Shown piece after piece: positions 4,197 to 25,961 of a stretch of DNA of 64,000 bases. Position numbers and translations under genes: made by a program. Source of the DNA: Martinezella lusitana (GTDB lineage Bacteria; Pseudomonadota; Alphaproteobacteria; Rhizobiales; Rhizobiaceae); assembly GCF_014207095.1 (NCBI RefSeq), contig NZ_JACHBG010000003.1, forward strand, positions 124,001 to 188,000, read 5' to 3'. Below the pieces are notes generated by a model. It was not told the DNA's origin. It did not search any database and saw only the letters and a list, made by a program, of their open reading frames with translations. How positions within the stretch are numbered: the first letter of the stretch is position 1; each line of letters starts with the position of its first letter.

Positions 4197-4721
4197 TCAA
4201 GTGCGAGACTGAAGCGATAGCAGTTTCGTCGCCAATTGCTTGGCATCGATGGATGCAAGATTGCCACCGGCAAAGAACGGGTCGCGCGAGACGTCGCGCC
4301 CGACCCAGGGCGGGAGTATGAAGGTTTCGAGCGCAACGGCCGACTCCAGCTCCAGCTCGCCTAAAACCAAGCCGGCAAGATGATCTTCGAAGACATCAAT
4401 GCAGAATGCGGAGGGAATGACGTTGTATCGCTTCTTCCGCAAGCCTTTAGCGGGCAGCGCTGAGAACAGATCATGTTCCTGCGCCGTCAGGTAAATATTG
4501 ACGATTGCGAGCGGCTCGCCGCTCTCGCTCGGGTACTTTTTGCAGAGCTTGTATTGCGTCTCCCGATCCTGGCCGGTGATCTTGCGCAGGCGTAGTCTCG
4601 TGCCATCGAGATAGAGATCTTCGATCAGTCGAAATCTCTTGTCGGAAAGATCGGGAATATCGCCGAGTAGAAATCGCCGCTCAAATTCGGGCTTCGCATA
4701 TTTCGGAATTGAGTGCGCCAT
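4197..4721 (-). CDS. CYTH domain protein (class IV adenylate cyclase/triphosphatase fold)
   Basis: The 174-residue protein carries CYTH hallmarks: E-F-E-R-R-F at residues 12-17 (the family ExExK motif with Arg for Lys), the basic strand RLRLRK (42-47) and the acidic strand ELELES (122-127). The CYTH tunnel fold binds triphosphates; members include class IV adenylate cyclases, thiamine triphosphatases and inorganic triphosphatases. The substrate cannot be read from the sequence. The ATG at 4721 is preferred over an in-frame TTG at 4763. It lies downstream of a cyclic-nucleotide-binding protein on the same strand, 52 bases away, which makes nucleotide signalling worth considering but does not prove it. 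Confidence 0.82.
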   Translation of the reverse strand: MAHSIPKYAKPEFERRFLLGDIPDLSDKRFRLIEDLYLDGTRLRLRKITGQDRETQYKLCKKYPSESGEPLAIVNIYLTAQEHDLFSALPAKGLRKKRYNVIPSAFCIDVFEDHLAGLVLGELELESAVALETFILPPWVGRDVSRDPFFAGGNLASIDAKQLATKLLSLQSRT

Positions 4722-4773
4722 CTCGCAATGAGGCGCCTGCTGCTCAAAGGCACAAGCGCCCAACCTCTTGGTA

Positions 4774-5250
4774 TCAATGCGTGGACATCGGCTGCGACTG
4801 GCTCAAACGGCTGCGAACAGCCGTAAGCTCTGAGGTCGTATGGTTCAGACGATCGGCGAGAACGCGCATGATCTCGACCGCCATTTCCGGGAAGTCGCTG
4901 AGCAATTTCAGGAAGTGTTCCTTGCTGATCTTCAGCGCCTCCAGCCGAGAGGTCGCTTTCACTGTCGCTGTACGGGAAACGTCGCAAAGAATGGCGATTT
5001 CACCAACGATGGAGTTGAGATCGACCTCGGCAACCTTGATCTCGCCGGCGGGGCTGTCGACGAGAATATCAGCGGTTCCTGAAAGAACAACATAAGCGGC
5101 ATCGCCTTGATCGCCCTGATGAAACAGGGTTTGTCCAGCATTGTAGCTGACGCGATCCGACGTAAACGCCAACAATTTCAACTTCGCCGGTGCGATGCGC
5201 GAAAAAATCGGCACCCGCTTCAGCATTTCAACTTCATCTTTCAGAAGCAT
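4774..5250 (-). CDS. Stand-alone cyclic nucleotide-binding domain protein
   Basis: The 158-residue protein is almost entirely one cNMP-binding beta-barrel. YNAGQTLFHQGDQGDAAYVVLSG (given here as the span of residues 36-58) is followed by the phosphate-binding cassette VGEIAILCDVSRTATVKA, with the Gly-Glu pair at 83-84 and Arg93 that usually contact the cyclic phosphate and ribose. There is no helix-turn-helix after the barrel, so it is not a Crp/Fnr transcription factor; it more likely works as a protein partner. The ATG at 5250 has a G6 run as ribosome site; an in-frame TTG is at 5259. It follows the degenerate ABC protein by 52 bases on the same strand and is probably in the same transcript. 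Confidence 0.88.
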   Translation of the reverse strand: MLLKDEVEMLKRVPIFSRIAPAKLKLLAFTSDRVSYNAGQTLFHQGDQGDAAYVVLSGTADILVDSPAGEIKVAEVDLNSIVGEIAILCDVSRTATVKATSRLEALKISKEHFLKLLSDFPEMAVEIMRVLADRLNHTTSELTAVRSRLSQSQPMSTH

Positions 5251-5302
5251 GAGCTTCAACCCCCCAGTGTTCGGCCCCAGACGCCACTGTCGAGATAGGA
5301 TA

Positions 5303-8017
5303 TTACGATAACAGTTCTTTGAACATACCGTTTTTCTCTAAAAGGTCGGTCGTTGAACCGCTTTCGACAAGGTTGCCGTGATCGAACACCAACACGCGGT
5401 CGAACAATTCGGCAAAACTGGGATTGGACAGGACCCAGATGACAGCCGGTGAATAGCCCGCGCTATCGAGATCCCCCAATATGGCTCTGGCAATCTGATC
5501 CTGAACACGATGATCAAGCGCCGGCAGCGGGCGATTGCAGATGATATAGTCCGCGCGCTTCAAAAGCGCACGGCCGAGATTGAGCTTCTGCCGTTGCACG
5601 TTCGTCAGGCGCTTGCCGCCCGACCCGACGTCGAAATCCAGGCCGATCGACAGAACACCATCATGCATGCCGAGACGCGCGAAGACGTCGAACATGATCT
5701 GATGGATGCGCTCGGGGGCATTAGCCTGCTGATGCGCGATACGCCCGAACAGAACATTGTCCATCAGGGTCGCCGATGCCGTGAAGCGCTCGGGATCGTA
5801 ACGCTCGATCACGCTGGCAAGATCGGCGGGAATGTTCTCATAGAATTTCGCACGCGCCTGCACGATCTTCTCCATGAGCATCTGCGTCAGGAGACCGAAA
5901 CGGTGGCGGGGCTCGATGTAGGAAAAGCTCAACCGGATAATCGCCGATCTCTCGTCGTCGGTTGCCGCCTCGTAGCCCTTGCCATTCAGCTTCTGCAACA
6001 GCGCCTCATAGGTCGGAATATCTTCCGCCGTCATGAAGGTCAGTTGCTGGAAGAACGGATGATCCGGCGGCAAGTCTGTGAAGAGTTCGACGGCGTTTTC
6101 CGCAATCTCCAGGCCCATGTCATAGAGATCGGAGATCAGCCCGGTTTCTGCGAACAGTTGCCGGAAATATGGATGTGCGGCCAGCTTGCGGTTGGTCATC
6201 TGCGGCCGCTTCAGGGTGCCGAACAGCAGATTTTCGCCGACGGTCGCCTGCAGATTATAGGCGTCGAACTGGAAGGGAACGACGAGGTCCTCGAGCTTTT
6301 CTTCCTGCAGCCGCTCCCGCAGCGCCTGTCGCAATTCCACAATGCGTGACGTCAGATCCTGGTGTGATGCGGTGTCGACATTCGAGCGCAACGCCATGTC
6401 GAAAATATCTTGAGACATCGCCACGGCATCGAGAACAGGGCGGATCACCGAATAGATATCTTCCGGGCCGCTCGCTCCCGCAGCGGCATAGTCGACCCAG
6501 TCGCCATTGAGATCGAGTTCCGGATTGGCAGCTCGCCGCGCCTCGTTCATTTGCCACTTGGCTTTGGTCGCCTCCTCCTCACTATAGGCGGGGGGAATAA
6601 GTGGCGCGTGCTTGAGGCCATAGAGCAGATTGCTGCGCAACGTACCGTGGAAGAAGAAGGTCTCGGATGAGGCATAGGCGATCCGCCGCCCGGTCAGCGA
6701 CTCCGGCAGCTCCAATATGTCACGTCCATCAATCGAAACACGGCCGCTGTCCGGCCAGACCAGCCGGCCGAAGGCTTCAGCCAGATATTCGCCACCGGCA
6801 CCGCTGTCGCCGACGATCGCAACCTTTTCCCCGGGCTGGATTTCGACGGATACGTGGTCGAGTACACGCGCGCCGCTGTCGTCGACGACGGTCACATTGG
6901 TCGCGAGAAGCGAATGGGTAATGCGGCCGGCCGGCGCTGGCGAGACAACCTGGATCTTCGGGTCGATCAGATTGTCGACGCTGAATTGCTCGACAACCTG
7001 ATTATATTTCACCTGTACATCCTGGCGCGACTGATCCCAGTCGATCAGTTCCTTGAGAGGACCGGGCAGATCCTTGTAGGCATTGATGACGGCAACGAGC
7101 TGACCAATATCCAGCCGACCCTGCAGGGCCAGGAAGCCGCCGACCAGATAGAACAGGAACGGCGTGACCTGCGCGAGGAAGTTGTTGATGAACTTCACCA
7201 TGAACTTCCATTGGTAAAGATCATAGCGGATCGAAAAGATCAGCCCCAGGCGTTGCGCGATATCCGCGCGCTCCAGGTTCGTCGTGTCGTTCGCATGGAT
7301 CGTGCCGATCCCGTCGACGATCTCGCCGACGCGCCCGGAAAGCTCGCGCGCCGTCAGCTGTCGCTGGCGACCGAGCTCCAAAAGGCGCTTGCGCATGCGC
7401 GGAATGACGATCGCCTGCACTGCGACGATGGCTGCGGCAATCATGCCCAGCCAGAAATTCTGCATGATGATGAAGACGAGGGCCGTCACCGCCTGGCCAC
7501 CCAGGAGCGCTGGCTGAACGAAGGCATCGCCGGTGAAACCGCCCATCGGCTCCACCTCGTCCTTGATCATCGTTGCAATCTCGGCAGGCTTCACCCGCTT
7601 GAAATGCGCCGGCGGGAACCGCAGCACCCGATCAATCAGCTCGAAACGGATGCGGCGCAGCATGCGTTCGCCAAGCCGGCCCTTGTAGGTGTTGATATAG
7701 AGCTTGAAGAGGCCGTTGAGCACGACAAGGGCCAGAAACACCAGGCTCAGCGCCACCAGCATCCACATGCGGGTAAGCTGGAATCCGTGGAACACTTCGA
7801 TATGACCGATCAACGGTACGTCGAAGGCAATGTGCATGAAGGTCTGCGTGTCGCCTGGATGCTCGAAGCCCTTACCCTGAATGGGTCCATTGACGATCTG
7901 CTTCGGCAGGTCGAACGACAGGAAGTACGGAATCATCGAAGCGGCGACAACAAGCAGTATCCAAATCTGCTCCAGTCGGGTATTCGACCAAATGTAACGC
8001 GCTAGGCTTTTTTCCAT
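5303..8017 (-). CDS. ABC exporter-like protein with degenerate, expanded nucleotide-binding domain
   Basis: The 904-residue protein has an ABC exporter membrane domain (about residues 15-310, helices near 20-36, 85-103, 170-205 and 275-300) and a C-terminal ABC-ATPase-like domain. That domain lacks every catalytic element: Walker A reads GDSGAGGEYL (403-412, no Lys), the signature reads RLTNVQRQ in place of LSGGQ (803-810), Walker B reads YIICNRPLPALD (Asp and Glu replaced by Asn and Arg) and the H-loop His is Asn. Walker A and signature lie about 400 residues apart, against about 110 normally. The extra part repeats the segment after the Q-loop: TLRSNLLYG (459-467), TVGENLLFG (592-600) and TLMDNVLFG (750-758). 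There is no stop or frameshift, so it looks selected rather than decayed. No active partner ATPase is adjacent. Its neighbours are glycosyltransferases and a cNMP-binding protein. Confidence 0.88.
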   Translation of the reverse strand: MEKSLARYIWSNTRLEQIWILLVVAASMIPYFLSFDLPKQIVNGPIQGKGFEHPGDTQTFMHIAFDVPLIGHIEVFHGFQLTRMWMLVALSLVFLALVVLNGLFKLYINTYKGRLGERMLRRIRFELIDRVLRFPPAHFKRVKPAEIATMIKDEVEPMGGFTGDAFVQPALLGGQAVTALVFIIMQNFWLGMIAAAIVAVQAIVIPRMRKRLLELGRQRQLTARELSGRVGEIVDGIGTIHANDTTNLERADIAQRLGLIFSIRYDLYQWKFMVKFINNFLAQVTPFLFYLVGGFLALQGRLDIGQLVAVINAYKDLPGPLKELIDWDQSRQDVQVKYNQVVEQFSVDNLIDPKIQVVSPAPAGRITHSLLATNVTVVDDSGARVLDHVSVEIQPGEKVAIVGDSGAGGEYLAEAFGRLVWPDSGRVSIDGRDILELPESLTGRRIAYASSETFFFHGTLRSNLLYGLKHAPLIPPAYSEEEATKAKWQMNEARRAANPELDLNGDWVDYAAAGASGPEDIYSVIRPVLDAVAMSQDIFDMALRSNVDTASHQDLTSRIVELRQALRERLQEEKLEDLVVPFQFDAYNLQATVGENLLFGTLKRPQMTNRKLAAHPYFRQLFAETGLISDLYDMGLEIAENAVELFTDLPPDHPFFQQLTFMTAEDIPTYEALLQKLNGKGYEAATDDERSAIIRLSFSYIEPRHRFGLLTQMLMEKIVQARAKFYENIPADLASVIERYDPERFTASATLMDNVLFGRIAHQQANAPERIHQIMFDVFARLGMHDGVLSIGLDFDVGSGGKRLTNVQRQKLNLGRALLKRADYIICNRPLPALDHRVQDQIARAILGDLDSAGYSPAVIWVLSNPSFAELFDRVLVFDHGNLVESGSTTDLLEKNGMFKELLS

Positions 8018-8255: not shown

Positions 8256-9416
8256 TCACGCGATCTGGCGAATGATAGCCGAGGTCCTGGCCGCGCCACC
8301 GAGGTCGATATCAGCGCTGCCAGGCTTGGGCCGCGACAAGGCGGTCTCGACCGCCCTGACCAGCAGATCCGTGGTCAGTCCGGCCTCGGGTAGCGCCTGC
8401 GCAAGACCAAGCTTCTCAAGCCGCTCGGCCCTCACGGACTGCTCGGTCTCCCCGCCGGCGGTGAACGGCACCAGAATGGCGCGGCAGCCTGTGACAAGGA
8501 GATCGCCAACCGTGTTGTAACCGGCTTGGGAAATCGACAGCTCCGCCCCTCTCAGCAATGAAGGGAAATCCTTGCGGAAGCGCACGATTTCGACATTACC
8601 AGGTGCATCCTTGGTCAAATCCGCAAAATCCTGTTCCGGCAGGTTCGGGCCGGTGACGAGCAGCCAGCGATGCGAGGTCGCCACTCGGCTCGCCGCCTCA
8701 AGCGAGGCGCGGATAAGATCACGGCCGACGGCGCCGCCGCCAGCGGAAACGACAATATCGAAGGTCTCGACAGGCTCGGGAGGCAGCGCAGGTGCCACAA
8801 GCCCGGTGTAGACGATCTTATCGGCGATAGAACCGGTCAGAGGGAATGTCTCTTCCAGCCGGATGAAGTGGGGATCCCCGTGGACGAGAACGCCATCGAA
8901 ATGATCGCGCAGCAGCCCTACCGTCTCCTCGTCGCGTCCCGGCTTCTTCTGCTGCTGCAGGATATCGCGCACCGACGAATAAAGCCGGGGCTTCGGATCA
9001 GCCTTGGCAACCGCGTCCAGCAAGGGCAGCAGCTCAAAACGCATCTGCCGGCGCCCGAAGGGAAATGCTTCTATGACGACGACGTCCGGCGCTGCGTGCC
9101 GAAACGCCTCAAGCAGACGCTCGCGGCGCTGTGTTAGGAACGCTTCATCGACTGGATTGCCGGATTGATCGGCGAGCCCGGAAAAACCGGAACTGCTGGC
9201 GACCACCGCCGGCAGCGTAACCGAGGTCACATCGCTACCTGGAAAGCCACTCACCGGGATGCCGCCGGTAACGACAGTTACCTGGCAGCCGTCCGCGGTC
9301 ATGGCGCTAGCAATGCGGCTGGCTCTTGCAAGATGGCCAATTCCGAGCAGATGCTGAACATAGAAGAATATACGCAAGGGACGGATGTCTGCTGACGTCA
9401 TGCGGATTTCCGCCAT
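8256..9416 (-). CDS. Glycosyltransferase, MurG/GT28-like (first of two paralogues)
   Basis: The 386-residue protein begins with FFYVQHLLGIGHLARASRIA, the glycine-rich N-terminal loop of GT-B enzymes. Its C-terminal half has VVSAGGGAVGRDL and QAGYNTVGDLLVTGCRAILVP, the nucleotide-sugar site seen in MurG-like transferases. It should add a sugar from an NDP-sugar donor to an unknown acceptor. The ATG at 9416 follows aaggaag; a second ATG at 9401 makes an exact ATGA overlap with the preceding gene, so the start is uncertain by five codons. Either way it overlaps the upstream GT4 gene, which implies co-translation. It shares order and motifs with the protein at 10778-11992. Confidence 0.85.
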   Translation of the reverse strand: MAEIRMTSADIRPLRIFFYVQHLLGIGHLARASRIASAMTADGCQVTVVTGGIPVSGFPGSDVTSVTLPAVVASSSGFSGLADQSGNPVDEAFLTQRRERLLEAFRHAAPDVVVIEAFPFGRRQMRFELLPLLDAVAKADPKPRLYSSVRDILQQQKKPGRDEETVGLLRDHFDGVLVHGDPHFIRLEETFPLTGSIADKIVYTGLVAPALPPEPVETFDIVVSAGGGAVGRDLIRASLEAASRVATSHRWLLVTGPNLPEQDFADLTKDAPGNVEIVRFRKDFPSLLRGAELSISQAGYNTVGDLLVTGCRAILVPFTAGGETEQSVRAERLEKLGLAQALPEAGLTTDLLVRAVETALSRPKPGSADIDLGGAARTSAIIRQIA

Positions 9417-10657
9417 TGGTCTTCCTTCTGCCACTGCTCTTCGAACAGCCGCGTCAATTGCCGAATGCTGGCGTGATGATCGAAATGCTCGCGCACCCGC
9501 CTTTCCGCCGCATCTCCAAGCTTGTGGCGCAGCATCGGATTGCGGATCGCTGATTCCAGCCCTGCCGCAAGCGCCTGGGGGGCCTCCGGGGGAACGACGA
9601 GACCGTTCTCTCCATCTTCGAGCAGCTCTGGAACGCCCGAAATATTGGTGGAGATGCACACGAGACACTGGCTGGAAGCCTCGACGAGCACGTTCGGCAG
9701 GCCGTCCCTATCGCCATCTGCGGCAACGCGGCAGGCGAGTGCAAAAATATCCGCCTGACGGTAATGCGCCAGCACCTCTTCCTGCGCCAAGGCACCCTTC
9801 CAGGCGATGCGGCCGGCAATGCCGAGTGTTTCGGCAAGCGCCTTCAACTTTGCGAGTCCGTCGCCACCGCCAATATGGGTGAAACGCCAATGGAGATCAC
9901 CTGGCAGCAGAGCCAGCGCCCTCAACAATACGTCATACCCTTTCTTCTCCACAGCGCGGCCGACGCTGAGGATAAAAACGGGGTCGGCCGCATCCATACC
10001 GTCACGATTGGAATGCTCGCCCGCGAAGGGGCCGAAGCGATCGAGATCGAGGCCATGATAGCTCAGATACACGTTGTCACGCATGTCGGTCAGATCGCGC
10101 ATATGCTCGAAACCGCTGCGCGTGCAAGTGACTGCCCAACGGGCGCGGCCGAGCTTTTCCGAAAGCTCCCAGTCGGGTGAGGTCCAGATATCCTTGGCAT
10201 GCGCCGAGCAGGTCCAGGGTACGCCGGTCATTATGCTGGCATAGGCGGTCACGGAGGCCGGCGTATGGATGAAGTGCGCGTGTAGCCATTCACCGCCGTC
10301 GGGCCATTCATGCGCCAGCACCAGGGCCTGGCCGAAACGGCGAACGCGGTTCGGAGTAACATCCCGCTTCAAATCGGCCCAGAATTGCTTCACGAGCGGC
10401 CAGAAGCCGGGCTTGCCAATGCTGGCAAAGAAAGCGCGCAGAACTCTCAGCGGTTCGTTGTGCAGATACTCAGGCAGATAGACCACGCGCGCCTTGATCT
10501 CGTCGTGAACCGGATGGCGCTTCTTGTCCGTCGGCTTTCGCATCGAAATCAGCGTCAGATCAAATCCGGCCCTTTCCAGGCCGAGCAGCTCTTGCGCGAT
10601 AAAGGTTTCCGACAGGCGGGGATAGCCCTTGAGGACTACCAGTATTTTCTTTCGCAT
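9398..10657 (-). CDS. Glycosyltransferase family 4
   Basis: The 419-residue GT-B enzyme starts MRKKILVVLKGYPRLSETFI and contains the GT4 donor-site pieces SVGRAVEKKGYDVLL and DGLPNVLVEASSQ, then GVPELLEDGENGLVV (the E-x7-E motif). Retaining GT4 enzymes build polysaccharides, lipopolysaccharide and glycolipids. The ATG at 10657 fits the family N-terminus; the longer in-frame form would start at a TTG at 10735 with no good ribosome site. It lies between two MurG-like transferases and overlaps the one downstream, so the three probably assemble one glycan. Acceptor and product are unknown. Confidence 0.88.
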   Translation of the reverse strand: MRKKILVVLKGYPRLSETFIAQELLGLERAGFDLTLISMRKPTDKKRHPVHDEIKARVVYLPEYLHNEPLRVLRAFFASIGKPGFWPLVKQFWADLKRDVTPNRVRRFGQALVLAHEWPDGGEWLHAHFIHTPASVTAYASIMTGVPWTCSAHAKDIWTSPDWELSEKLGRARWAVTCTRSGFEHMRDLTDMRDNVYLSYHGLDLDRFGPFAGEHSNRDGMDAADPVFILSVGRAVEKKGYDVLLRALALLPGDLHWRFTHIGGGDGLAKLKALAETLGIAGRIAWKGALAQEEVLAHYRQADIFALACRVAADGDRDGLPNVLVEASSQCLVCISTNISGVPELLEDGENGLVVPPEAPQALAAGLESAIRNPMLRHKLGDAAERRVREHFDHHASIRQLTRLFEEQWQKEDQWRKSA

Positions 10658-10777
10658 CAAAAGGTCTCGATGATCCCAGGCATTTCCGCTTTCAACGGAG
10701 CCGCGGCAATACTCTATCTCGTTGTCTTCACGCAATTTCGAACGCGAACATCGCTTCGCGCCTATGCTCGAATTGCA

Positions 10778-11992
10778 CTACTCGGCAACAATCGACAGCG
10801 GCGGATAGCGCTCGCGATCATCGAACCACTCGCCGACCGTGTGCGAAATATGCACGAGCCCCTCAAGGCGCATGTTGCTGCTGCTTGCGGAAGGAGGCGC
10901 GCGGTTCGGCAAGCGCTTCAGGGCGGCGGCAAGCTGCTTCGGATCGGCCGATTCCTCCGGCAACAGCATATCGACGAGACCCAGCTCGCTTGCCCGCTGC
11001 GCCCGGATCAGTTGCTCCTCGCGCGGCCGCGTGCGCGGAATGATCAGCGCCGGCTTATCGAAGGACAGGATCTCGCAATAGGTGTTGTAGCCGCCCATGG
11101 CAACGACAGCCCTAGCGCCGGCGATCAGCTCTTCCATCTTGTTGTCGAATTCGATCACCTGCAGACAGTCGATCTTGCCCGCCCGTTCCAGCAGCTGACT
11201 GCGCTCCTTGGCCGGCATATAGGGGCCAAGGACAATCAATGTCTTTTGCGTCAGCGAGCTGTCGTACTCGAAAGCGCCGATGACATCGCTGACAAGATCG
11301 GCGCCATCGCCACCGCCACCCGTCGTCACCAGGATGTAGTCCTCGTCGGGTACATGTTCGGACTTCGTGCCGAGCTTGGAAACGCTGCGCTGCAGGAAGC
11401 CGACGAATTCCATCTTCCGGCGCACGCCTGCCGGCACGTCGAGGCCGACGAGCGGATCATGGAAATCCGGTGGCCCATAGACCCAGACGCGATCGTAGAA
11501 CTGATCGATCTTCTGCAGGACGTTGTTCTTCTTCCACTCCGCTTCCAAGAGGTGTGGCGCGTCCATGACATCGCGCATGCCGAGTACGAGCGTCGTGCCG
11601 CGCGCCTTGAGATAGGTCAACGTCTCCTCGACCTCACCCTTGAGCCCAAGGGGCTCTTTGTCAACGATGAAGACGTCGGGCTGAAAGGTTTCGGCGGTGT
11701 GCCGGATGATCGACTGCCGCATCTTCAGCGTTTCCTGCAGCGCGACATGGCTCGCCATCGACGTATACTCGCCGTCGCGCAGCTTGATGACGCTCGGCAC
11801 TTTTACGAAATCGACGCGCGCCCGATAATCGAAAGCGCCGGCGATCGTCGCGCCGGAGATAATCAACACATTCAGGCCACGATAATCCTCGACAAGAGCA
11901 TGTGCGATCGTGCGGCATCGCCTCAAATGGCCGAGACCGAACGTGTCGTGGCTGTACATTAGGATTCGAGCATCTTCTAAGCGCCGCTTCAT
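10778..11992 (-). CDS. Glycosyltransferase, MurG/GT28-like (second of two paralogues)
   Basis: The 404-residue protein has the same plan as the protein at 8256-9416: ILMYSHDTFGLGHLRRCRTI at the N-terminus, then VTTGGGGDGADLV and VVAMGGYNTYCEILSFDKPA, where MGGYNTYCEIL parallels QAGYNTVGDLL in its paralogue. It is a predicted NDP-sugar transferase with unknown acceptor. The ATG at 11992 is preceded by agagg eight bases away, while the longer frame would need a TTG at 12040. A gap of 120 bases separates it from the GT4 gene, so one transcript is likely but not certain. It is the first gene of the glycan group on this strand. Confidence 0.85.
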   Translation of the reverse strand: MKRRLEDARILMYSHDTFGLGHLRRCRTIAHALVEDYRGLNVLIISGATIAGAFDYRARVDFVKVPSVIKLRDGEYTSMASHVALQETLKMRQSIIRHTAETFQPDVFIVDKEPLGLKGEVEETLTYLKARGTTLVLGMRDVMDAPHLLEAEWKKNNVLQKIDQFYDRVWVYGPPDFHDPLVGLDVPAGVRRKMEFVGFLQRSVSKLGTKSEHVPDEDYILVTTGGGGDGADLVSDVIGAFEYDSSLTQKTLIVLGPYMPAKERSQLLERAGKIDCLQVIEFDNKMEELIAGARAVVAMGGYNTYCEILSFDKPALIIPRTRPREEQLIRAQRASELGLVDMLLPEESADPKQLAAALKRLPNRAPPSASSSNMRLEGLVHISHTVGEWFDDRERYPPLSIVAE

Positions 11993-12094
11993 GGGCAAAA
12001 CCTCTGGGGGATGAAAGTCATGTACGCGGTCTGTCGGCAAACGACATCCACGTCCGCTCCTCGAATTGCAATCCTGTCTTCGCCATTCACCCTG

Positions 12095-13270
12095 CTATTT
12101 GTAGGGATCGGCGGCATCGCGCAAGCCGTCTCCTAAAAAGTTGAACGCCAGAATGACCAAAATCACCGGGATCATCGGAAAAAGAAGCCATGGATAGAAG
12201 GCGATCACACTCACGTCCTTTGCCTCGGTCAACAGAATACCCCAGCTCGTGATCGGCGGGCGCAGACCTAATCCGAGGAAGCTCAGCGCCGTCTCGCCGA
12301 GAATCATGCGAGGAACCGCGGTCGTCGCCGCAGCGATCAGATAGGACATGAACCCCGGCACAAGATGGCGGCCGATGATGCGCCTTGTGGGGGCGCCCAT
12401 CAGCTGCGCGGCAAGCACATAGTCTTCCTCGCGCAGGGATAGAAGCTTGGAGCGAACTGCACGCGCAAGACCCGTCCAGTCCAGAATGCCGAGAATGATG
12501 GTAATGCCGAAATAGACTATGATCGGGCTCCAGCTCACAGGCATGATCGCGGCTAGCGCCATCCATAACGGCAGGCTTGGTACCGATTGAAGGATCTCGA
12601 TCACGCGCTGAACAAGCAGGTCGAACAGGCCGCCGTGATATCCCGCAAGACCGCCGATGACGATCCCGAGCACGAAGCTGATGGCGATGCCGATCAACCC
12701 GATCGTCAGGGATATGCGTGCGCCGTAGATGATCCGCGACAGCACGTCACGGCCGAGCCGGTCGGTTCCTAGCAGATACATCTGACCGCCGATGGCCGGG
12801 CAAACCAGATGGACGTTTGATTCTACCAGGCCCCAGAAGCGATAGGCATCACCGCGACAGAAGAAGCGGATGGGCTGCACGTCCGATGTGTTGTCGGTGT
12901 AGTTCCTGCGCAGCGTGTCGATATCGAGTGTCATCTTGCGGCCATAGACGAACGGCCCGACGAAGTTGCCCTTATCGAAAAAGTGAACCGCCTGCGGTGG
13001 CGAATGAATGTAGTCGACGTTACGGCTGTGCAGCCCATAGGGCGCCACGAACTCCACGATCAGGATCATCCCATACATTAGCGCCAGAAAGATGCCGGAT
13101 GCGAGCGCGAGCTTGTGCTTCTTGAATTTCCACCACATCAGCTTCTTTTGCGAGGCCATGTAGTAGCGTTGCTGGCCAGCGGACATGGCTTCGAACTGAT
13201 CCGGATCGAAATCCGCGCTCGAGACATAATGCTCCAGTGGGGCGCCAGGGCTTGGCAGAGGTGCGGTCAC
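12095..13270 (-). CDS. Peptide-type ABC transporter permease (OppC/DppC family)
   Basis: The 391-residue membrane protein has a long cytoplasmic N-terminus, a helix near residues 55-75, a periplasmic segment and the permease core with the coupling loop EEDYVLAAQLMGAPTRRIIG, typical of DppC/OppC. The start is GTG in the sequence GTGA, overlapping the stop of the partner permease by four bases, which implies translational coupling. It is the last gene of an operon coding an ATPase, a binding protein and two permeases. The roughly 100-residue insert between the first helix and the core also occurs in YejE-like systems. Confidence 0.92.
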   Translation of the reverse strand: MTAPLPSPGAPLEHYVSSADFDPDQFEAMSAGQQRYYMASQKKLMWWKFKKHKLALASGIFLALMYGMILIVEFVAPYGLHSRNVDYIHSPPQAVHFFDKGNFVGPFVYGRKMTLDIDTLRRNYTDNTSDVQPIRFFCRGDAYRFWGLVESNVHLVCPAIGGQMYLLGTDRLGRDVLSRIIYGARISLTIGLIGIAISFVLGIVIGGLAGYHGGLFDLLVQRVIEILQSVPSLPLWMALAAIMPVSWSPIIVYFGITIILGILDWTGLARAVRSKLLSLREEDYVLAAQLMGAPTRRIIGRHLVPGFMSYLIAAATTAVPRMILGETALSFLGLGLRPPITSWGILLTEAKDVSVIAFYPWLLFPMIPVILVILAFNFLGDGLRDAADPYK

Positions 13271-14265
13271 TTTGTACTCCTGCCTTGCAAGCGGATGCGG
13301 GGATCGAGAAAGCCGAGAGCGATATCGGAAATCAACACGCCGATGACATTGAGGAAGGCCAGGAACATCAGGAACGAGCCGGCAAGATACATGTCCTGGC
13401 TCTGCAAGGCCCGGATCAGCATCGGGCCGGTCGTCTCAAGCGATAGCACAATGGCGGTGATTTCGGCGCCGGAAATGATCGATGGCAGGATGGAACCGAT
13501 ATCGGCGACGAAGAAGTTCAACGCCATACGCAACGGATATTTGACCAGCGCCCTTAGCGGATGCAGGCCCTTGGCGTGCGCTGTGATGACATATTGCTTC
13601 GGCATTTCATCGAGCAGGTTGGCGCGAAGGCGGCGGATCATCCCGGCCGTCCCGGCGGTGCCGACGATGATGACCGGGATCCAGAGATGCGCCAGGATCG
13701 AGCGCGCTTTTTCCCAGCTCATCGGTTGCGACAGATATTTCTGATCCATCAGGTGGCCAACCGACACGCCGAACCAGACATTGGCGAAATACATCAGGAT
13801 CAGCGCCAGCATGAAGTTCGGGATGGCGATGCCAAGCAGGCCGAGAAAGGTAAGGCTGTAATCGCCCCAGCTATATTGATGCGTGGCCGAATAGATGCCG
13901 ATCGGGAAGGCGATCAGCCACGTCACGATGATCGTCGTCATCGACACCAAGATGGTCAGCCACAGGCGATCGCCCACCACATCCGACACCGGCAACTGAT
14001 ATTCGAAGGAATAGCCGAAATCGCCGTGCAGCATCCCGGCGACCCAGCGGAGATATTGAATCGGAAGCGGCCGGTCGAGCCCATATTCGTGGCGAAGCTC
14101 CTCAATCTTCTGAAGGTCAGCGGTCTCGCCCTGAGCACGCAGCTCGGCGATCTGGCTTTCGAAGAAATCGCCCGGCGGGAGCTGGATGATGGTAAAGACC
14201 AGCATGGAGATGACGATCAACGTCGGGACCATCACCGCAATGCGCCAGAAGATATATCTAAGCAT
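13267..14265 (-). CDS. Peptide-type ABC transporter permease (OppB/DppB family)
   Basis: The 332-residue protein starts MLRYIFWRIAVMVPTLIVIS, the standard first helix of OppB/DppB permeases, and carries about six membrane helices with the coupling loop HAKGLHPLRALVKYPLRMAL. It forms the channel with the OppC-type protein. Its ATG lies inside the end of the binding-protein gene (8-base overlap), and its stop overlaps the next start, so this operon is tightly packed. Confidence 0.93.
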   Translation of the reverse strand: MLRYIFWRIAVMVPTLIVISMLVFTIIQLPPGDFFESQIAELRAQGETADLQKIEELRHEYGLDRPLPIQYLRWVAGMLHGDFGYSFEYQLPVSDVVGDRLWLTILVSMTTIIVTWLIAFPIGIYSATHQYSWGDYSLTFLGLLGIAIPNFMLALILMYFANVWFGVSVGHLMDQKYLSQPMSWEKARSILAHLWIPVIIVGTAGTAGMIRRLRANLLDEMPKQYVITAHAKGLHPLRALVKYPLRMALNFFVADIGSILPSIISGAEITAIVLSLETTGPMLIRALQSQDMYLAGSFLMFLAFLNVIGVLISDIALGFLDPRIRLQGRSTK

Positions 14266-16174
14266 TGGGACGATCCTCCTTCATCCAGAAGGTGTCTGGC
14301 ATGTAAACCCCGAGATAGCAGGTCGGAGTGAAGCCGTAGAGCGCCTTATCGGGCACGTTCTGCATGCGCGACGAGTGAACGATCGGCTGCAGCGTGCCAT
14401 TGACAAGCCCGATGGAGAAGACCTGGTCCGAATAGATCGCCAGCATATTATGCCAGATTTCGGCACGCTCGAAGGAGGATGCGGCCTCCTCCCACTCATG
14501 AAGCAGCTTGACGAGTTTGGCCGCCTCCGGAACGTCGGGCGCAACCCCTTTCGTCTCGCGCGAGAGGTAGTACATGCCCCAGAGCGGCCATTGCATCTGG
14601 TCGTTGGTCGTCGGTGCCAGCTCCGCCGGGGTCATGTCCGCCGTCGGCGCGCCGTTGTCGAGGCCGAACCACAACGACATCTGAATGCGCCCGCCCATGG
14701 CGCGGCTTTGAAAAACATCGCGTTGCGAGACGCGGGTGAAAAGCGCAATGCCGACCTTGCGCCAGTGATCGGTCACCAGTTCTAGGACGTCCGAATCGAG
14801 CGTGCTTTCACCCGGTGTTTCCACGGTGATCTCCATCCGCCGCCCATCCGGCAACAGACGGATGCCGTCATCGTCGCGCCTGGCGAGACCTGCGTCATCG
14901 AGAAGAGCATTGGCCTGATCCGGATCGTGCGCGATCCACGCCGACGCATATTCAGGCTTAAAGAGCGGGCTGTCCGGCAGGACGGTATTGGCGCTCTCCG
15001 TGCCAAGGCCGTAGAAAACGGCCATGTTAATCTCACGGCGGTCGATCGCCAGCGACATGGCTCTACGCACCCTGACATCGCGCAGGACATCCCGCCAGAC
15101 AGGATCGGCACTGTTCAGATTCGGAAACAGCGCAACGCGCGAGCCGCGCACCGATTTCCACAGATTGACTTTGACCGGATAGCGCTTCTCTGCCTCCTTC
15201 AGGAAAGTATAGTCGCTGAAGTCGATGCCGGTCGCCTGCAGATCGCTCTCTCCCGCACCGGTCTTGGCGGCGATGATCGACGACGAGCTGATGTTCAGGA
15301 TCATACGATCGATATAGGGGAGCTGTCGCCCATTCTCGTCAACGCGATGAAAATAGGGGTTACGTTCGAAAATGAATTGCTCGGCCGGCGGTGCCGTCGT
15401 GTTTTTCCAGGGATCGAGGACCGGCAGATTGGGATTTTCAGGCCGGTACGAGCGGCCCATCTTGATATGAAGGTCCTGCCACTTCTTTGCCCGATTTTCC
15501 TTCATCAGCGAGGCGAGGCGAATGCTGTCCTGGTATTTCTTGTGGAACTGCTTAAGGTAGTGCGCCGGGCCGGCGATGATCAGTGGCTGCGGGGCGGCAA
15601 GAATCGACAGAAAGCCCGGATTGGGATCATCCCAAGAATAGCGCACCGTCAATTCGTCGAGCACCTCAAAACGCGGCAGGCTGCCGTGCGGTCGCAGCTC
15701 CAAGGCCCCGCCGCCGGGCGTCAACTCCTTGTTGAGGATGACGTCTTCCCACCAGTAGCGGAAGTCATTGGCCGTGAAGGGCTGCCCGTCCGACCATTTA
15801 TGCCCTTCGCGCAACTTGAAGGTGAAAACCATATCGTCGACGGAGGAAAAAGACTCCAGAATATCCGGCTGCAGCGTCAGGTTTCGGTCGTAGCCGACGA
15901 GACGGGCATAACCGTAGATCGTCATGAAACGAAGGTCGTTCTGGCTGCCGATGATCATGCGCACCGAACCGCCATAGTGGCCCGGCACGCGCCCCATGGC
16001 GGCGACGTTGACGACGCGTGGGAATTTCGGCAGGCGCTTGGCGAGATGCGGCAATTGGCCGGCTCTCAGCCAATCGGCGAGATATTGGGGCTCATTATCG
16101 ACATCGGCTGCGGCAAGAGGCGAAGGAAGCACCGTGGAGGCCAGCAGGCCAAGAAAGGTTCTGCGAGTTACCAT
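14258..16174 (-). CDS. Extracellular solute-binding protein family 5, Tat-type signal
   Basis: The 638-residue protein begins MVTRRTFLGLLASTVLPSPL and a processing site near AAA. The Arg-Arg-x-Phe-Leu motif suggests export in folded form by the Tat pathway. The mature part has SBP_bac_5 features: FTFKLREGHKWSDGQPFTA, then DVRVRRAMSLAIDRREIN. Family 5 proteins bind peptides, nickel or oligosaccharides; at over 600 residues this resembles the YejA-like or large sugar/peptide subgroup. It overlaps the ATPase gene by seven bases and the permease by eight. The ligand is unknown. Confidence 0.92.
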   Translation of the reverse strand: MVTRRTFLGLLASTVLPSPLAAADVDNEPQYLADWLRAGQLPHLAKRLPKFPRVVNVAAMGRVPGHYGGSVRMIIGSQNDLRFMTIYGYARLVGYDRNLTLQPDILESFSSVDDMVFTFKLREGHKWSDGQPFTANDFRYWWEDVILNKELTPGGGALELRPHGSLPRFEVLDELTVRYSWDDPNPGFLSILAAPQPLIIAGPAHYLKQFHKKYQDSIRLASLMKENRAKKWQDLHIKMGRSYRPENPNLPVLDPWKNTTAPPAEQFIFERNPYFHRVDENGRQLPYIDRMILNISSSSIIAAKTGAGESDLQATGIDFSDYTFLKEAEKRYPVKVNLWKSVRGSRVALFPNLNSADPVWRDVLRDVRVRRAMSLAIDRREINMAVFYGLGTESANTVLPDSPLFKPEYASAWIAHDPDQANALLDDAGLARRDDDGIRLLPDGRRMEITVETPGESTLDSDVLELVTDHWRKVGIALFTRVSQRDVFQSRAMGGRIQMSLWFGLDNGAPTADMTPAELAPTTNDQMQWPLWGMYYLSRETKGVAPDVPEAAKLVKLLHEWEEAASSFERAEIWHNMLAIYSDQVFSIGLVNGTLQPIVHSSRMQNVPDKALYGFTPTCYLGVYMPDTFWMKEDRPNA

Positions 16175-18242: not shown

Positions 18243-19580
18243 TCACGGAGCATGCTTTTCGACTTGAAAACGGCTCTCGAATTTCTTGGCATCCCTGTGT
18301 AGCAGAATAACCTGCTCTGCTTCAGAGAGGCCATCTGTCTCGGCATCGCTAAAGATTTCCGCGACGCGGCTGGAGGCTGTGGCAGCCTTCGGAGAGACGA
18401 CGGTGAAGCGCTGGCGCACGCCCCGCAGCTTTTCCTCCCCGAGCGTTCCCCACTCGCAATCGGTGTAGCCGGAGAATGCCTGGCTGGCGACGACTTCCGT
18501 CGCATATTTCTTCGTCAGCGATTGAAGCCGCTCGACCTCGTTGACGGCAGCGCCGAAGGCGGAGAAAGTCAGCCGGTCCTTCAATCCCACATTGCCGAAC
18601 ATGACGTTGCCGACATGAAGGCCGATGCCGTATCGCACCTCGCTCAAGCTACGTGACCGGCGATCCTCGTTCAACGCGGCAACGCGGCGCTGAGCTTCGA
18701 AGACGGCGGAAAGCGCCGCCTCGCAAGCAACCTTCGACGGGTCCTTATGCCGACCACAGGGGTAAACGGCCAGAAATCCGTCGCCGAGGAAGCTCATGAT
18801 CTCACCGCCATTGCGATTGAACGGCGCGGCGATCGCATCGAAGAACTCGTTGAGCGTATCGATATAGGCTTGCCGCCCCTCCTTCTCGGCATAGACGGTG
18901 GACTGTCGCATGTCGCCCATAACGAGCGCCGCGCGGATCGTCTCGCCGTCGCCGCGACGGATCTGCCCATTCAGCACGCGCTTGCCGGCATCGCCGCCGA
19001 GATAGGTCGTCAACATGTTGTTGGTGAGTTTGCCGAGAACCGCCATCTTGGCAGCCATGGCCAGATGATTCTGGATGCGCATGAGCGCACCGATCATGTC
19101 CTCGCTGAAGCCGCCGACGCCATCGGTGGACCAGGATCCCATCATCCCCTGCATGGACCCTGCACCGAAGGTCTGCACGAAGGCAAGATAGTCGGTGATC
19201 TTCTCCTTGCGCAGATCGTCGAAGATGGGAAATTCCACGGCGCCATCCAGATCGATGCGGCGGCGCAAATGCAGAAGATTGTTGGACAAAAGGTAATAAT
19301 AAGGGCTCTGCATGAATCGTTCCGGCCGCTCATTCGCATGCCGGTAGCCCTCTATCGTCAGTCCACCAGTCCTGCGCCACGTAAAGCCGAGCGCGTCATA
19401 GAGCGGGTGCAGCATCGAAAAGGTCAGATGCACGCGATAGAGGGGCATGCCGGTGGCAGCCATACGCTCGCAGAACCCGCGCACGATGGTCTCCAGGTTT
19501 TCGCCGGTCAATGCCGCGTGGGTCAGCCACTCCGCAACCTTGTCGAGAAGAATATTGGAAACAGTCGAATGAGCAGTCAT
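18243..19580 (-). CDS. Class III adenylate/guanylate cyclase, soluble
   Basis: The 445-residue protein has an N-terminal region of about 200 residues without a recognised domain, then a class III cyclase catalytic domain. Metal-binding Asp223 (VMGDMRQST) and Asp267 (SFLGDGFLAVYP) are present, as are the transition-state pair Asn347 and Arg351 (VNEVERLQ). The position that usually holds the adenine-selecting Asp is Ala344 (FGAAVN), so substrate choice is uncertain. The ATG at 19580 is chosen; an in-frame GTG is at 19589. There is no membrane segment. It probably makes cAMP from ATP in response to an unknown input sensed by the N-terminal part. Confidence 0.88.
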   Translation of the reverse strand: MTAHSTVSNILLDKVAEWLTHAALTGENLETIVRGFCERMAATGMPLYRVHLTFSMLHPLYDALGFTWRRTGGLTIEGYRHANERPERFMQSPYYYLLSNNLLHLRRRIDLDGAVEFPIFDDLRKEKITDYLAFVQTFGAGSMQGMMGSWSTDGVGGFSEDMIGALMRIQNHLAMAAKMAVLGKLTNNMLTTYLGGDAGKRVLNGQIRRGDGETIRAALVMGDMRQSTVYAEKEGRQAYIDTLNEFFDAIAAPFNRNGGEIMSFLGDGFLAVYPCGRHKDPSKVACEAALSAVFEAQRRVAALNEDRRSRSLSEVRYGIGLHVGNVMFGNVGLKDRLTFSAFGAAVNEVERLQSLTKKYATEVVASQAFSGYTDCEWGTLGEEKLRGVRQRFTVVSPKAATASSRVAEIFSDAETDGLSEAEQVILLHRDAKKFESRFQVEKHAP

Positions 19581-19956
19581 TATCCCCACGGCCTATCTTT
19601 GAATTATCGATGCACGCCCCGGCAACACAGCGCCTGCCAAATCACCCGGCTGCCCTCTGCTGTGATGCCGATCTCCCGGCTCGATCAAATAAACAATCAT
19701 TCAAGGCGTCGGCGGATGCTCCAGACACTGGATTGACCCGGACGCCACAAGAAACCAGCTGCACACGCTCCCAAAACAGGGAGCAACAAAACGCGGCAAA
19801 AAGACAGCCGCAAAATCACCGACTCTCGTTTTGTTCTCATTGAAATAAGGCGCACATACCGCCGAAACAATGGGTGAAACGCCAGTCGCAACGATAAATT
19901 TGCTTTGGCGGCAAAATAGCCGACAAAATATATCTTTCACATACAGGCAGGTATAA
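19581..19956. other. Intergenic region without a recognised gene
   Basis: These 376 bases separate two minus-strand cyclase-like genes and must contain the promoter of the downstream one. The stretch is less GC-rich than its surroundings (for example 19790-19870 and 19895-19950). I see no clear hairpin, RNA gene or conserved short coding sequence in it. Confidence 0.5.
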
Positions 19957-21132
19957 TCACGCGCCGGTGGCGAGTTCAGGCGGCTTTTTACCCCGCATTG
20001 CCATGGCAGCCATGGCGTATCCGCCGCTTGCTCCGTCGATGAAATGCATATGATCGCGCATCAGGGGCGTTGGTACGAAACAGGTCATCAATGCACTATC
20101 CTGCCGATGCAAGCCATAGCGACAGACGCCTTCCGCCTCAGCCTGCCGCAGACGCGCCTCGATGCGCGACAATCGTTCCGCGTCCACATCGATGGTCATC
20201 TTCAAGCCGTCATCGAACTTGCGAAAATCGGAGTTCGCGGCAAGGTCGCTGCGATAAATCTTGGCATCGAAGGCCGCCATTCGGAACCCTAACCTGTCGA
20301 GAATGTAGATGAGGACGATCTGAGCGCCGATGGCAAGCTTGCGCCACCAGCGATCGGCTGTCTGCGCCTGTGCGCGAGCCTCCATCTCCGCCCCCTCGAA
20401 GATCAGCGACGGCGTCGGCCCCTCGACAGGGACCGGATGGCCATCACGGCTCTCCTCCTTTGCGATGGCGATGATGTCGGCAACGAGCAGCTGGAACTTC
20501 GCGCTGTTTCCAATGTCGCCCGGAACAGCGATGATGGAGACGATCTCGCCATTATGCGCCTTGATCGGGTTCCAGCGGCAGGACAGGCCCGTCAAATCGG
20601 GACGGGCTTGCGGGGCGGCGGCCTCGACGATGAAATGCCCCGCCTTCATCTGCCTCTCGGCCCAACTTGTGCCGCCGCCGAAGAACATGGCGTAGGAGAC
20701 GTGTTCGCTCGGGCTGAAGCGCGCGACCATGACGTCCAGCCCTTCGCTGCGAATTGCCGACATCGGAACGAGAGCGGTTCGCAGCTCAAGCTGCAATTCT
20801 TCGATAACCCAGGTCCGCACGGCGGCAAGCGCCTGCCGCACCCGTCCCTCGCCTGACGGCGGGATGGCCACCAAGGCGCCGTCGCCGCCGAAAACGAAAG
20901 GATAGTCGCCCTTGTCCAATGCGTTGAGAATGGCCGAAATCACACTGGCGCCGGCCATATTGACGGATTTGTAGTGGCCCGCAGCTATTGCCTTTGTCGA
21001 GCTGACGATATCGGCAACTGCGATCAGCCAATCATCGGGAAGAGGCTGATAGTTAGCACTGTCTGTCACCCCTTCGAAACGGGTGAAGGCCGTCAGCTTG
21101 TGGAAGAAATCGTCGTTGGATAAGTCAACCAT
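19957..21132 (-). CDS. DUF3095 family protein, cyclase-like
   Basis: The 391-residue protein matches the DUF3095 pattern: an N-terminal region with VADIVSSTKAI (Asp41) and FVFGGDGALVAIP (Asp84), and a C-terminal DRLGFRMAAFDAKIYRSDL segment. D-I-V-S-S-T followed by G-G-D-G is the same arrangement as the two metal-binding loops of class III nucleotide cyclases, so a cyclase-related palm fold is likely; activity is not known to me. ATG 21132 has ggggga seven bases upstream, while the longer frame starts at TTG. A possible membrane helix lies near residues 275-290 (AIGAQIVLIYILDRLGF). It lies among two other cyclases. Confidence 0.82.
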   Translation of the reverse strand: MVDLSNDDFFHKLTAFTRFEGVTDSANYQPLPDDWLIAVADIVSSTKAIAAGHYKSVNMAGASVISAILNALDKGDYPFVFGGDGALVAIPPSGEGRVRQALAAVRTWVIEELQLELRTALVPMSAIRSEGLDVMVARFSPSEHVSYAMFFGGGTSWAERQMKAGHFIVEAAAPQARPDLTGLSCRWNPIKAHNGEIVSIIAVPGDIGNSAKFQLLVADIIAIAKEESRDGHPVPVEGPTPSLIFEGAEMEARAQAQTADRWWRKLAIGAQIVLIYILDRLGFRMAAFDAKIYRSDLAANSDFRKFDDGLKMTIDVDAERLSRIEARLRQAEAEGVCRYGLHRQDSALMTCFVPTPLMRDHMHFIDGASGGYAMAAMAMRGKKPPELATGA

Positions 21133-21251
21133 GACAGTTCCCCCTTTCGTCAATACCTCAACAGTCTATCCCTACAACAAACATCGCGAAAAGCCAGCGG
21201 GCGGTCGACCGCCAACGCCAGTCGTGCTACTGCGGCCACCGAAGGGCACTG

Positions 21252-24657: not shown

Positions 24658-24727
24658 CAAACCCAATATATATTGTCCGTTCACAACAGGAGCGAAAACG
24701 GTTATCGCCTATTCATCTAGCCGCAAC

Positions 24728-24857: not shown

Positions 24858-25961
24858 ATGAACATCGCTTTCTATGCACCGCTGAAGCCGCCCGGCCATC
24901 CCGTACCCTCGGGCGACCGGTTGATGGCCCGGCAGATTATGGAAGCACTGCGCATGGCGGGACACCGGGTCGAGGTGGCTTCCGAACTGCGGAGCTTCAC
25001 GTCGACCCCTGAAGCCGATCTGCGCGCGGCAATCGCACGGCAAGCCGGAGATGAGACATTGCGTCTGCTTGCGGGATGGCAAAGCAGGCAGACACCCGAT
25101 TTGTGGTTCACCTATCATCCTTACTACAAGACCCCCGATCTCATCGGTCCGCCAATCGCTCGGCAACTCGGCATTCCCTATGTCACTGCCGAAGCCTCCT
25201 ACTCCCGGCGCCAGGATGACAATGGCTGGGCCGAAAACCAGCGTCTGATTGCCGATGCCGTCCGGTTGGCGGCGGTCAATCTGTGCTTTACCGAGCGGGA
25301 CCGCGTCGGTCTTGTGGAAGCAATACCGTATGGCCGCTACGAGCGGTTCCTGCCCTTCATCGATGTCGCGCAGTTCAAACACGCGGCCTCCGCCCCGGAC
25401 CCAAGGCGACTGATCACCGTCGCCATGCTTCGAAAGGGTGACAAATTCGACAGCTACGTCATGCTCGCCAAGGCGCTCGATCTTATCCGCGATCGGGATT
25501 GGACCCTGACCATAGTCGGAGACGGGCCGATGCGGACCGAGGTACGATCGATGTTTTCGAGCTTCGGTGACGAGCGAATTACCTGGCGCGGCGAACGCCC
25601 GACATCGGAGATTGCAACAGAGCTTGCAACAGCCGGCCTCTATGTCTGGCCCGGCTGCAACGAGGCCTATGGGCTTGCCTATCTGGAAGCACAGGCAGCA
25701 GGCTTGCCCGTCGTCGCCCAGGCAACTGCGGGCGTGCCGGAAGTGGTGATGGCCGGCAAGACCGGACTATTGACACCGGAAGGCGATGTCGCCGCTTATG
25801 CGGCTGCCATCGCCGAACTTCTGAGCGATCAAAGCAAGCGGCAAGCCATGGCAGACGCGGCCCACACTTTTGTGCACCGGGAGCGCTCCTTGACGGCCGC
25901 TTCCAAACAACTTGAAACCATTCTTCGAAAGCATCTGGGAGATACCAATTATGAGCGATAG
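24858..25961 (+). CDS. Glycosyltransferase family 4
   Basis: The 367-residue GT-B protein starts MNIAFYAPLKPPGHPVPSGD, then has TVAMLRKGDKFDSYVMLAKAL, LTIVGDGPMR and the GT4 E-x7-E region NEAYGLAYLEAQAAGLPVVA followed by GVPEVV and GKTGLL. It transfers a sugar from an NDP-sugar to an unknown acceptor. Its stop codon overlaps the start of the deacetylase gene by 11 bases, so the two proteins are co-translated and likely act on the same glycan. The plus-strand pair diverges from cyaC across 200 bases. Confidence 0.88.
   Translation: MNIAFYAPLKPPGHPVPSGDRLMARQIMEALRMAGHRVEVASELRSFTSTPEADLRAAIARQAGDETLRLLAGWQSRQTPDLWFTYHPYYKTPDLIGPPIARQLGIPYVTAEASYSRRQDDNGWAENQRLIADAVRLAAVNLCFTERDRVGLVEAIPYGRYERFLPFIDVAQFKHAASAPDPRRLITVAMLRKGDKFDSYVMLAKALDLIRDRDWTLTIVGDGPMRTEVRSMFSSFGDERITWRGERPTSEIATELATAGLYVWPGCNEAYGLAYLEAQAAGLPVVAQATAGVPEVVMAGKTGLLTPEGDVAAYAAAIAELLSDQSKRQAMADAAHTFVHRERSLTAASKQLETILRKHLGDTNYER

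Follow-up and report, generated by a model that had tools for sequence, protein, structure and literature searches.

What does an ABC exporter-like protein do once its ATPase domain has lost its catalytic motifs? This question is raised by a gene of Martinezella lusitana at 5303..8017 of the 64,000-nucleotide stretch analysed here, which we call the window; coordinates are those of the window, and features lie on its minus strand unless stated otherwise. The gene was defined by its open reading frame and by Pfam. Its frame, described as undamaged in a preliminary description, indeed starts with ATG, encodes 904 aa and has zero internal stops. Pfam placed ABC_membrane (PF00664, 2.6e-17) at residues 86-311 and ABC_tran (PF00005, 4.6e-13) at residues 386-493 of the product, referred to below as the pseudo-ABC exporter. 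The protein thus has an exporter scaffold, made of a transmembrane domain (TMD; residues 1-345, 6983..8017), which is its best conserved part, and a nucleotide-binding domain (NBD).

Eight catalytic positions were scored, namely Walker A Lys and Ser/Thr, Q-loop Gln, signature Ser and Gly, Walker B Asp and Glu, and H-loop His, and the window protein was canonical at 0/8. By motif reading, the degenerate Walker A (GDSGAGGE, residues 403-410, 6788..6811) extends to GDSGAGGEYL at 403-412, with Gly409 at the Lys site and Glu410 at the Ser/Thr site. The Q-loop Gln is replaced by Ser451, the signature reads LTNVQ (804-808) and Walker B reads ICNRP (826-830); the Walker A, signature and Walker B readings had been put forward beforehand and were confirmed in the translation. 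Loss of the H-loop His also held, but its reported replacement by Asn did not: alignment with those relatives that read LHRA there puts Ser864 (5426..5428) at this site, with Asn865 next to it. Some Walker A glycines and the signature Leu and Gln are still present, and Asp379-Asp380 occupy the A-loop stretch, which was placed by eye.

The catalytic positions were lost and fixed in close relatives. We compared the gene with a near set, the best 80 of at least 469 confirmed relatives among named genomes, which were 57-95% identical and mostly rhizobial (Rhizobium, Phyllobacterium, Mesorhizobium, Sinorhizobium, Agrobacterium, Ochrobactrum/Brucella and some others). Across the resulting 81 close sequences (the window and these best 80 of at least 469), Walker A Lys was missing in 81/81, Walker B Asp had become Asn in 81/81, and the catalytic Glu was replaced by Arg (70), Gln (7), Lys (3) or Ala (1); Asp379 and Asp380 near the A-loop were invariant, Gln808 was kept in 81/81 and the D-loop Asp835 in 80/81.

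Selection on the gene is purifying. Pairwise Nei-Gojobori omega of the whole gene, between the window and 13 of the 80 near relatives, was 0.03 to the nearest, 0.03-0.06 to L095-L098, L100, L101 and L104 (seven of the eight closest relatives in this comparison), 0.09 to the eighth, L103, and as high as 0.24 to L132, and for the first seven relatives was 0.016-0.048 in the TMD versus 0.039-0.073 in NBD residues 370-490, all of these ratios being rough because dS was near or above 1 in most pairs. Mean TMD identity to the 80 near relatives was 83%, with 61-66% for three other regions, and charged TMD residues (e.g., R118, R121, R122, R124, R219, R264, K275) were conserved at 96-100% over all 236 members defined below. 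Low omega, motif loss throughout the 81 close sequences (best 80 of at least 469 relatives) and the absence of all eight positions support well, for the window's lineage, the earlier proposal of a pseudo-ATPase and show it to be under selection. A recent pseudogene or sequencing error was ruled out, since omega was low and frames of at least 850 aa were open in 80/80 near loci (best 80 of at least 469) and in 79/79 loci of the class set introduced below; an in-frame TAG in G406, one fragmentary class match, points against rejecting the pseudogene reading. Judged by its sequences, the pseudo-ABC exporter is a conserved family and not a decaying gene.

How far back the loss reaches was addressed in two further sets. 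The far set comprised 76 full-length members from an order sample of 199 genomes, some of which may share species with near loci. At a match threshold of 1e-60, the class search found the family in 79/240 genomes, and a phylum search yielded matches in 26/299 genomes (a total given undivided for in-class and out-of-class genomes), all of them within the class apart from G532, where the match is confined to the TMD. Class and phylum searches together provided a class set of 79 further loci, three of them from the same order and several genomes contributing two or three copies. Left out were homologues shorter than 850 aa from the order sample (L035, L047, L084, L085 and the TMD-only L086-L088), L194, and the class matches G406, G375, G336, G321 and G304:C4. 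The window, 80 near, 76 far and 79 class-set loci made up 236 alphaproteobacterial members. Separately, we observed that L086-L088 are proteins of 480-489 aa matching only the family's TMD part (34-35% by tblastn), and that L086 has ABC_membrane and no NBD by Pfam; they are possible NBD-less relatives.

None of the 236 members had more than 5/8 canonical positions. Walker A Lys was found in 1/76 far members, with Arg in 42/76, and the signature Gly was kept in 25/76; the class set kept Walker A Lys in 45/79, Walker B Glu in 38/79 and H-loop His in 24/79. Two members, L210 and L211, retain Lys, Asp-Glu and His, and are without Walker A Ser/Thr, Q-loop Gln and signature Gly. On a FastTree phylogeny of the TMD, in which six same-genome exporters served as outgroup, the family held together (support 96), and a clade of 107 (the 81 near sequences and 26 far; support 97) had Walker A Lys in none; at least 24 changes of the Lys/Arg/other state were needed over the whole tree. 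Since members outside Rhizobiales often keep Lys, the loss was stepwise and old rather than recent. As read from alignment and tree, the family as a whole decayed repeatedly and in steps; in the window's clade the decay is old and has run to completion. The preliminary description would have taken orthologues that retain both Walker motifs as a sign of recent loss; such orthologues were found in part outside the window's lineage (the members with Lys; L210 and L211), but recent loss was not borne out. Nucleotide binding or weak hydrolysis may persist in members keeping Lys or Walker B Glu. The sole far-set member with Walker A Lys, L069 (GATGSGKSS), has a fused cyclic-nucleotide-binding (cNMP) domain, and its Walker B Asp, signature Gly and H-loop His are all changed. 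On these comparative grounds, the window gene is the Rhizobiales form of alphaproteobacterial half-transporters derived from ABC exporters, with an NBD that lacks the ATPase residues.

A further feature, on which the preliminary description was silent, is an insert of about 300 aa between the Q-loop and the signature. Walker A-to-signature spacing was 401 aa in the window protein versus 104 aa in L002, L004 and L006, the three same-genome exporters in which both motifs were found. The insert consists of tandem extra copies of the Q-loop/helical subdomain, giving three copies in all: R1, a Q-loop strand plus helical-subdomain unit (residues 444-577, 6287..6688), R2, an extra copy of this unit (578-741, 5795..6286), and R3, the unit with the degenerate LTNVQ and ICNRP (742-830, 5528..5794). 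We drew the unit borders by eye, with 8 residues shared between the pieces for R1 and R2. hhalign scored R1/R2 at 46.7 and R1/R3 at 54.0, with maxima of 17.1-19.6 over 40 column permutations per pair and of 19.8-20.4 in reversed-side controls; R2/R3 reached 65.4, with control maxima of 17.3 (40 column permutations) and 12.0 (reversed). The three unit patterns read 'Y.F.GTLRDNLLYG ... VLD.V.L..DI..LGLRS ... EAR.ALR.RL', 'YN..ATVGENLLFG ... GL...L..MG.EIAE ... AR..F.E.LP' and 'AAASL.DN.LFGRIA ... LGL...VL..GLDF.VG ... LARALLKRP'. A profile of six canonical exporters matched R1 at 57.6 over 27 columns, corresponding to the ordinary Q-loop strand, R3 at 125.0 over 86 columns, and R2 weakly at 28.6 (permuted maximum 21.3); the case for copying therefore rests on the likeness of R1-R3 to each other. 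In known exporters, the helical subdomain is the part of the NBD that contacts the TMD.

The structure prediction proposed earlier was carried out with AlphaFold2 from a 73-sequence alignment (mean pLDDT 82.4, pTM 0.74; pLDDT below 50 at residues 154-172 and 318-334). The model shows long helices, which we interpret as six TM segments, together with an NBD that is complete. The ComA NBD aligned with the modelled NBD core over 239/239 residues (rmsd 2.1, Z 27.6), and because this alignment covers its full length, the insert is predicted to be a clean insertion. Modelled alone, the insert gave a pLDDT of 70.2, a pTM of 0.55 and no PDB match at E <= 0.001; we do not claim a new fold from this stand-alone model, which is too weak for it.

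Next to the gene, at 4774..5259, is a stand-alone cNMP-binding protein of 161 aa (PF00027, 1.2e-19; cassette VGEIAILCDVSRTAT), in which Pfam detected no other domain. This linkage is near-universal: by domain position, a cNMP-binding gene lay directly downstream on the same strand at 204 loci or was fused at 21 (L043 is an example of a natural fusion), i.e., in 225/235, comprising 80/80 near loci (best 80 of at least 469 relatives), 72/76 far loci (62 adjacent, 10 fused) and 73/79 class-set loci (62 adjacent, 11 fused). In the other 10/235 (L066, L089-L091, L210, L217, L263, L264, L266, L285) it was not found by domain position; that of L066, missed in this way, was found by similarity and by ORF gap. 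Because the basal clade of L089-L091 and L285 is without the cNMP gene, NBD decay may predate the cNMP partnership. Among 156 near- and far-set partners, which were picked for their similarity to the cNMP protein of the window, the cassette kept its Gly in 156/156, Glu in 149/156 and Arg in 154/156. The link to the neighbouring cNMP-binding protein, suggested from the window alone, is strongly supported by this adjacency and conservation. That the cyclic-nucleotide pocket is conserved and the ATP pocket lost is the chief reason to propose that the ligand has changed. In an annotated S. meliloti record, the exporter gene is labelled 'ABC transporter ATP-binding protein' and the cNMP gene 'Crp/Fnr family transcriptional regulator'; both labels are probably misleading, the latter being doubtful because the window protein has the cNMP domain alone by Pfam.

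The minus-strand run of the window comprises Opp genes (OppC, OppB and a solute-binding protein, 12095..16174; ORFs, with Pfam on OppC only), three glycosyltransferases identified by Pfam (GT28-type b, 10778..12040; GT4-type, 9398..10735; GT28-type a, 8256..9431, N-terminus uncertain), the pseudo-ABC and cNMP genes, and a CYTH-like gene (4197..4763). The 188 aa product of the latter is related to NE1496 (3typ, 4.2e-9; 2fbl, 4.8e-9), which we take to be of the CYTH fold; although directly behind the cNMP gene in the window, it was dropped as a conserved part (a possible class IV cyclase) since it occurs in only 4/80 near loci (best 80 of at least 469). Upstream of the run, to 27.6 kb, are two class III cyclase genes, at 18243..19589 (448 aa; PF00211, 2.2e-8) and 22933..24684 (583 aa, DKFIGDG, hydrophobic N-terminal half and 2Fe-2S domain; PF00211, 1.3e-18; PF00111, 2.3e-8), a DUF3095 gene (19957..21153; PF11294, 4.9e-132), an FkbM gene and a metallo-beta-lactamase-fold (MBL) hydrolase gene (26733..27563, HSHYDH; PF12706, 6.6e-22). 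Two genes between them are on the plus strand (24858..26697) and encode, by Pfam, a glycosyltransferase group 1 protein and a protein without a Pfam match, whose L149 relative is DUF2334-like, below cut-off. The cyclases are 10-17 kb upstream, and cyclases and metallo-hydrolase all lie within 20 kb.

Linkage to glycosyltransferases was frequent, at least one of the three being found in 158/235 loci (63/80 near, from the best 80 of at least 469 relatives, 46/76 far and 49/79 class set). Class III cyclases were near 47/235 loci (16 near, 25 far, 6/79 class set) and MBL hydrolases near 74/235 (37 near, 37 far, 0/79 class set), all neighbour counts being lower bounds because flanks differ, from about 1.5 to 8 kb. 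As cyclase and hydrolase are rare or absent in the class set, their link is mainly a Rhizobiales feature. Among far and class loci exceeding 9 kb in length, a class III cyclase was present in 31/118 versus roughly 2% expected, an expectation we estimated from 11 cyclase places in the 7.2 Mb of the window's genome. A Lys before the GD motif, as in adenylate cyclases, was found in 36/40 cyclase-type flank ORFs, two others having Ser and two no motif.

Several observations concern individual neighbours. The protein at 18243-19589 has Ser at the usual Lys position (MSFLGDGF) and is perhaps a cyclase of altered product or a pseudo-cyclase. The 2Fe-2S domain of the 22933-24684 protein suggests redox-controlled cyclase activity. 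DUF3095 recurs near the cluster in 18/80 near loci by tblastn (best 80 of at least 469), and the start of the protein (ADIVSSTKAI) resembles a cyclase metal-site motif. The MBL protein is not claimed as a proven cyclic-nucleotide phosphodiesterase, NF041851 scoring 36.8-40.4 with a cut-off of 400.

We give an even chance to the proposal that the pseudo-ABC exporter is a scaffold switched by cyclic nucleotide in place of ATP and serving a surface-glycan pathway, its gating and substrate being the conjectural parts. The protein would form a homodimer, and the cNMP subunit would dock on the enlarged helical, or coupling, part of the NBD. Rise and fall of cyclic nucleotide would then move the NBDs and thereby open or close the TMD path, the ligand probably being cAMP made by the cluster's own class III cyclases. 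This path would handle a glycan or glycolipid from the linked glycosyltransferases, moving downhill or pushed by synthesis, so that a cyclic-nucleotide switch would replace the ATP-driven stroke. We advance only tentatively the narrower idea that the protein is a flippase or channel for surface glycan or glycolipid that works independently of ATP and is gated by cyclic nucleotide, the cNMP subunit docking on the triplicated helical subdomain and being coupled through it. Counted against a cyclic-nucleotide switch are the ten loci without a detected cNMP gene, the restriction of nearby cyclases to 47/235 loci and of MBL hydrolases to 74/235, the Lys or Walker B Glu kept by class-set members, the in-frame TAG of G406, and the behaviour of the HetC cNMP domain, with its binding of ppGpp and its lack of significant protection by cAMP.

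Loss of the catalytic residues, together with the glycosyltransferase linkage at 158/235 loci, would also suit a protein that lacks a transport path and serves, like SUR, as regulatory scaffold or sensor, organising glycosyltransferases or reporting membrane state via the cNMP protein. This appears unlikely, since the TMD is the best conserved part and keeps its charged residues at 96-100% over the 236 members, suggesting more than a passive anchor. Somewhat less likely still is an arrangement like that of TAP or TM287/288, in which the protein would be the degenerate member of an exporter heterodimer, its canonical partner would be encoded elsewhere and ATP would be burnt at one composite site. 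Other exporters are present in the window genome, the signature Gly kept in 25/76 far members fits a subunit offering its signature to a partner, and degenerate sites are common in non-homodimeric exporters according to the available part of PMC7756269. However, within flanks of about 1.5 to 8 kb a second exporter-type TMD gene was found in 1/235 loci only, in agreement with the earlier statement that no partner half-transporter adjoins the gene, and about 300 aa of extra subdomain copies would be left unexplained. Moreover, signature, Walker A and Walker B are all changed in the window's lineage, and therefore both composite sites would be damaged.

Phage defence of the Pycsar type, in which a cyclase produces cyclic nucleotide upon infection and the cNMP protein and membrane protein form the effector, is a poor candidate in our view. 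Of the PADLOC models, PycTIR is matched by the cNMP protein (1.3e-16) and PycC by two linked cyclases (best 6.4e-32), but both models probably also recognise cNMP and class III cyclase domains in general; the family is moreover widespread (79/240 class genomes) and often kept with glycosyltransferases, and a cyclase is near only a minority of loci. It is slightly less probable again that the protein is a working but unorthodox ATPase or an ATP-binding switch: other members keep Lys, Glu or His, with up to 5/8 positions, but the window has none of the eight, and Walker A Lys is missing in all 107 members of its TMD-tree clade (support 97).

Returning to the proposed cyclic-nucleotide switch, degenerate ABC sites are usually discussed beside a live partner site, whereas here a whole family loses its motor stepwise and keeps the machine. 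The family is present in many alphaproteobacterial genomes, almost always with a conserved cyclic-nucleotide sensor, and would offer a system in which to ask directly whether a second messenger, in place of ATP, can drive or gate an ABC fold. No paper treating it was recognised in the open-access full-text literature, a scope outside which most subscription journals fall. The S. meliloti homologue lies at 841.7 kb on pSymB, and msbA2 (SMb21191) was ruled out as a studied homologue by its different position, 938 kb, where PMC3687685, in the part available, places a ChvI-bound fragment in the msbA2 operon; the available parts of PMC10659215, PMC5596199 and PMC11387232 concern the msbA2 operon or a LacI regulator and not the pseudo-ABC gene. 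The homologue of R. tropici CIAT 899 is 93.6% identical. In passing, the match in S. meliloti 1021 (L204, pSymB 841723-844432) spans 2710 bases versus 2709 in strain 2011, with 2708 in several other records; such differences could be single-base indels or record errors in the pseudo-ABC gene.

Compared with known systems, the pseudo-ABC exporter shares the TMD and NBD fold, and a sequence relationship, with MsbA and other type IV ABC exporter half-transporters, with NdvA and with the ComA NBD. It differs from MsbA-type exporters in lacking the catalytic positions and in carrying about 300 aa of extra helical-subdomain copies, and the MsbA equivalog model TIGR02203 scored 177.4 bits, under its cut-off of 602. 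TAP, TM287/288 and CydDC likewise tolerate degenerate Walker and signature residues, but the pseudo-ABC exporter has no adjoining partner in 234/235 loci and all of its motifs are changed in the window. Pycsar combines a class III cyclase, a cNMP-binding protein and a membrane protein, as does the window; here the membrane part is ABC-derived and set among glycosyltransferases, and a role in defence would be hypothetical. A cNMP-domain effector of Pycsar adjoins a pyrimidine cyclase; the cyclases of the window are the ones 10-17 kb upstream. HetC-type and NHLP-type exporters also link a cNMP domain to an ABC exporter (PMC10986499, in its available part; TIGR03896, the NHLP bacteriocin cNMP-associated protein model, which gave the window cNMP protein 42.2 bits, below its cut-off of 161.05). 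The same part of PMC10986499 reports that the HetC cNMP domain bound ppGpp in vitro, cAMP giving no significant protection. HetC depends on its ATPase residue and includes a C39 peptidase; the pseudo-ABC exporter has lost its ATPase residues and has no peptidase by Pfam. Of the precedents in which a cNMP domain acts on an ABC exporter, HetC comes closest.
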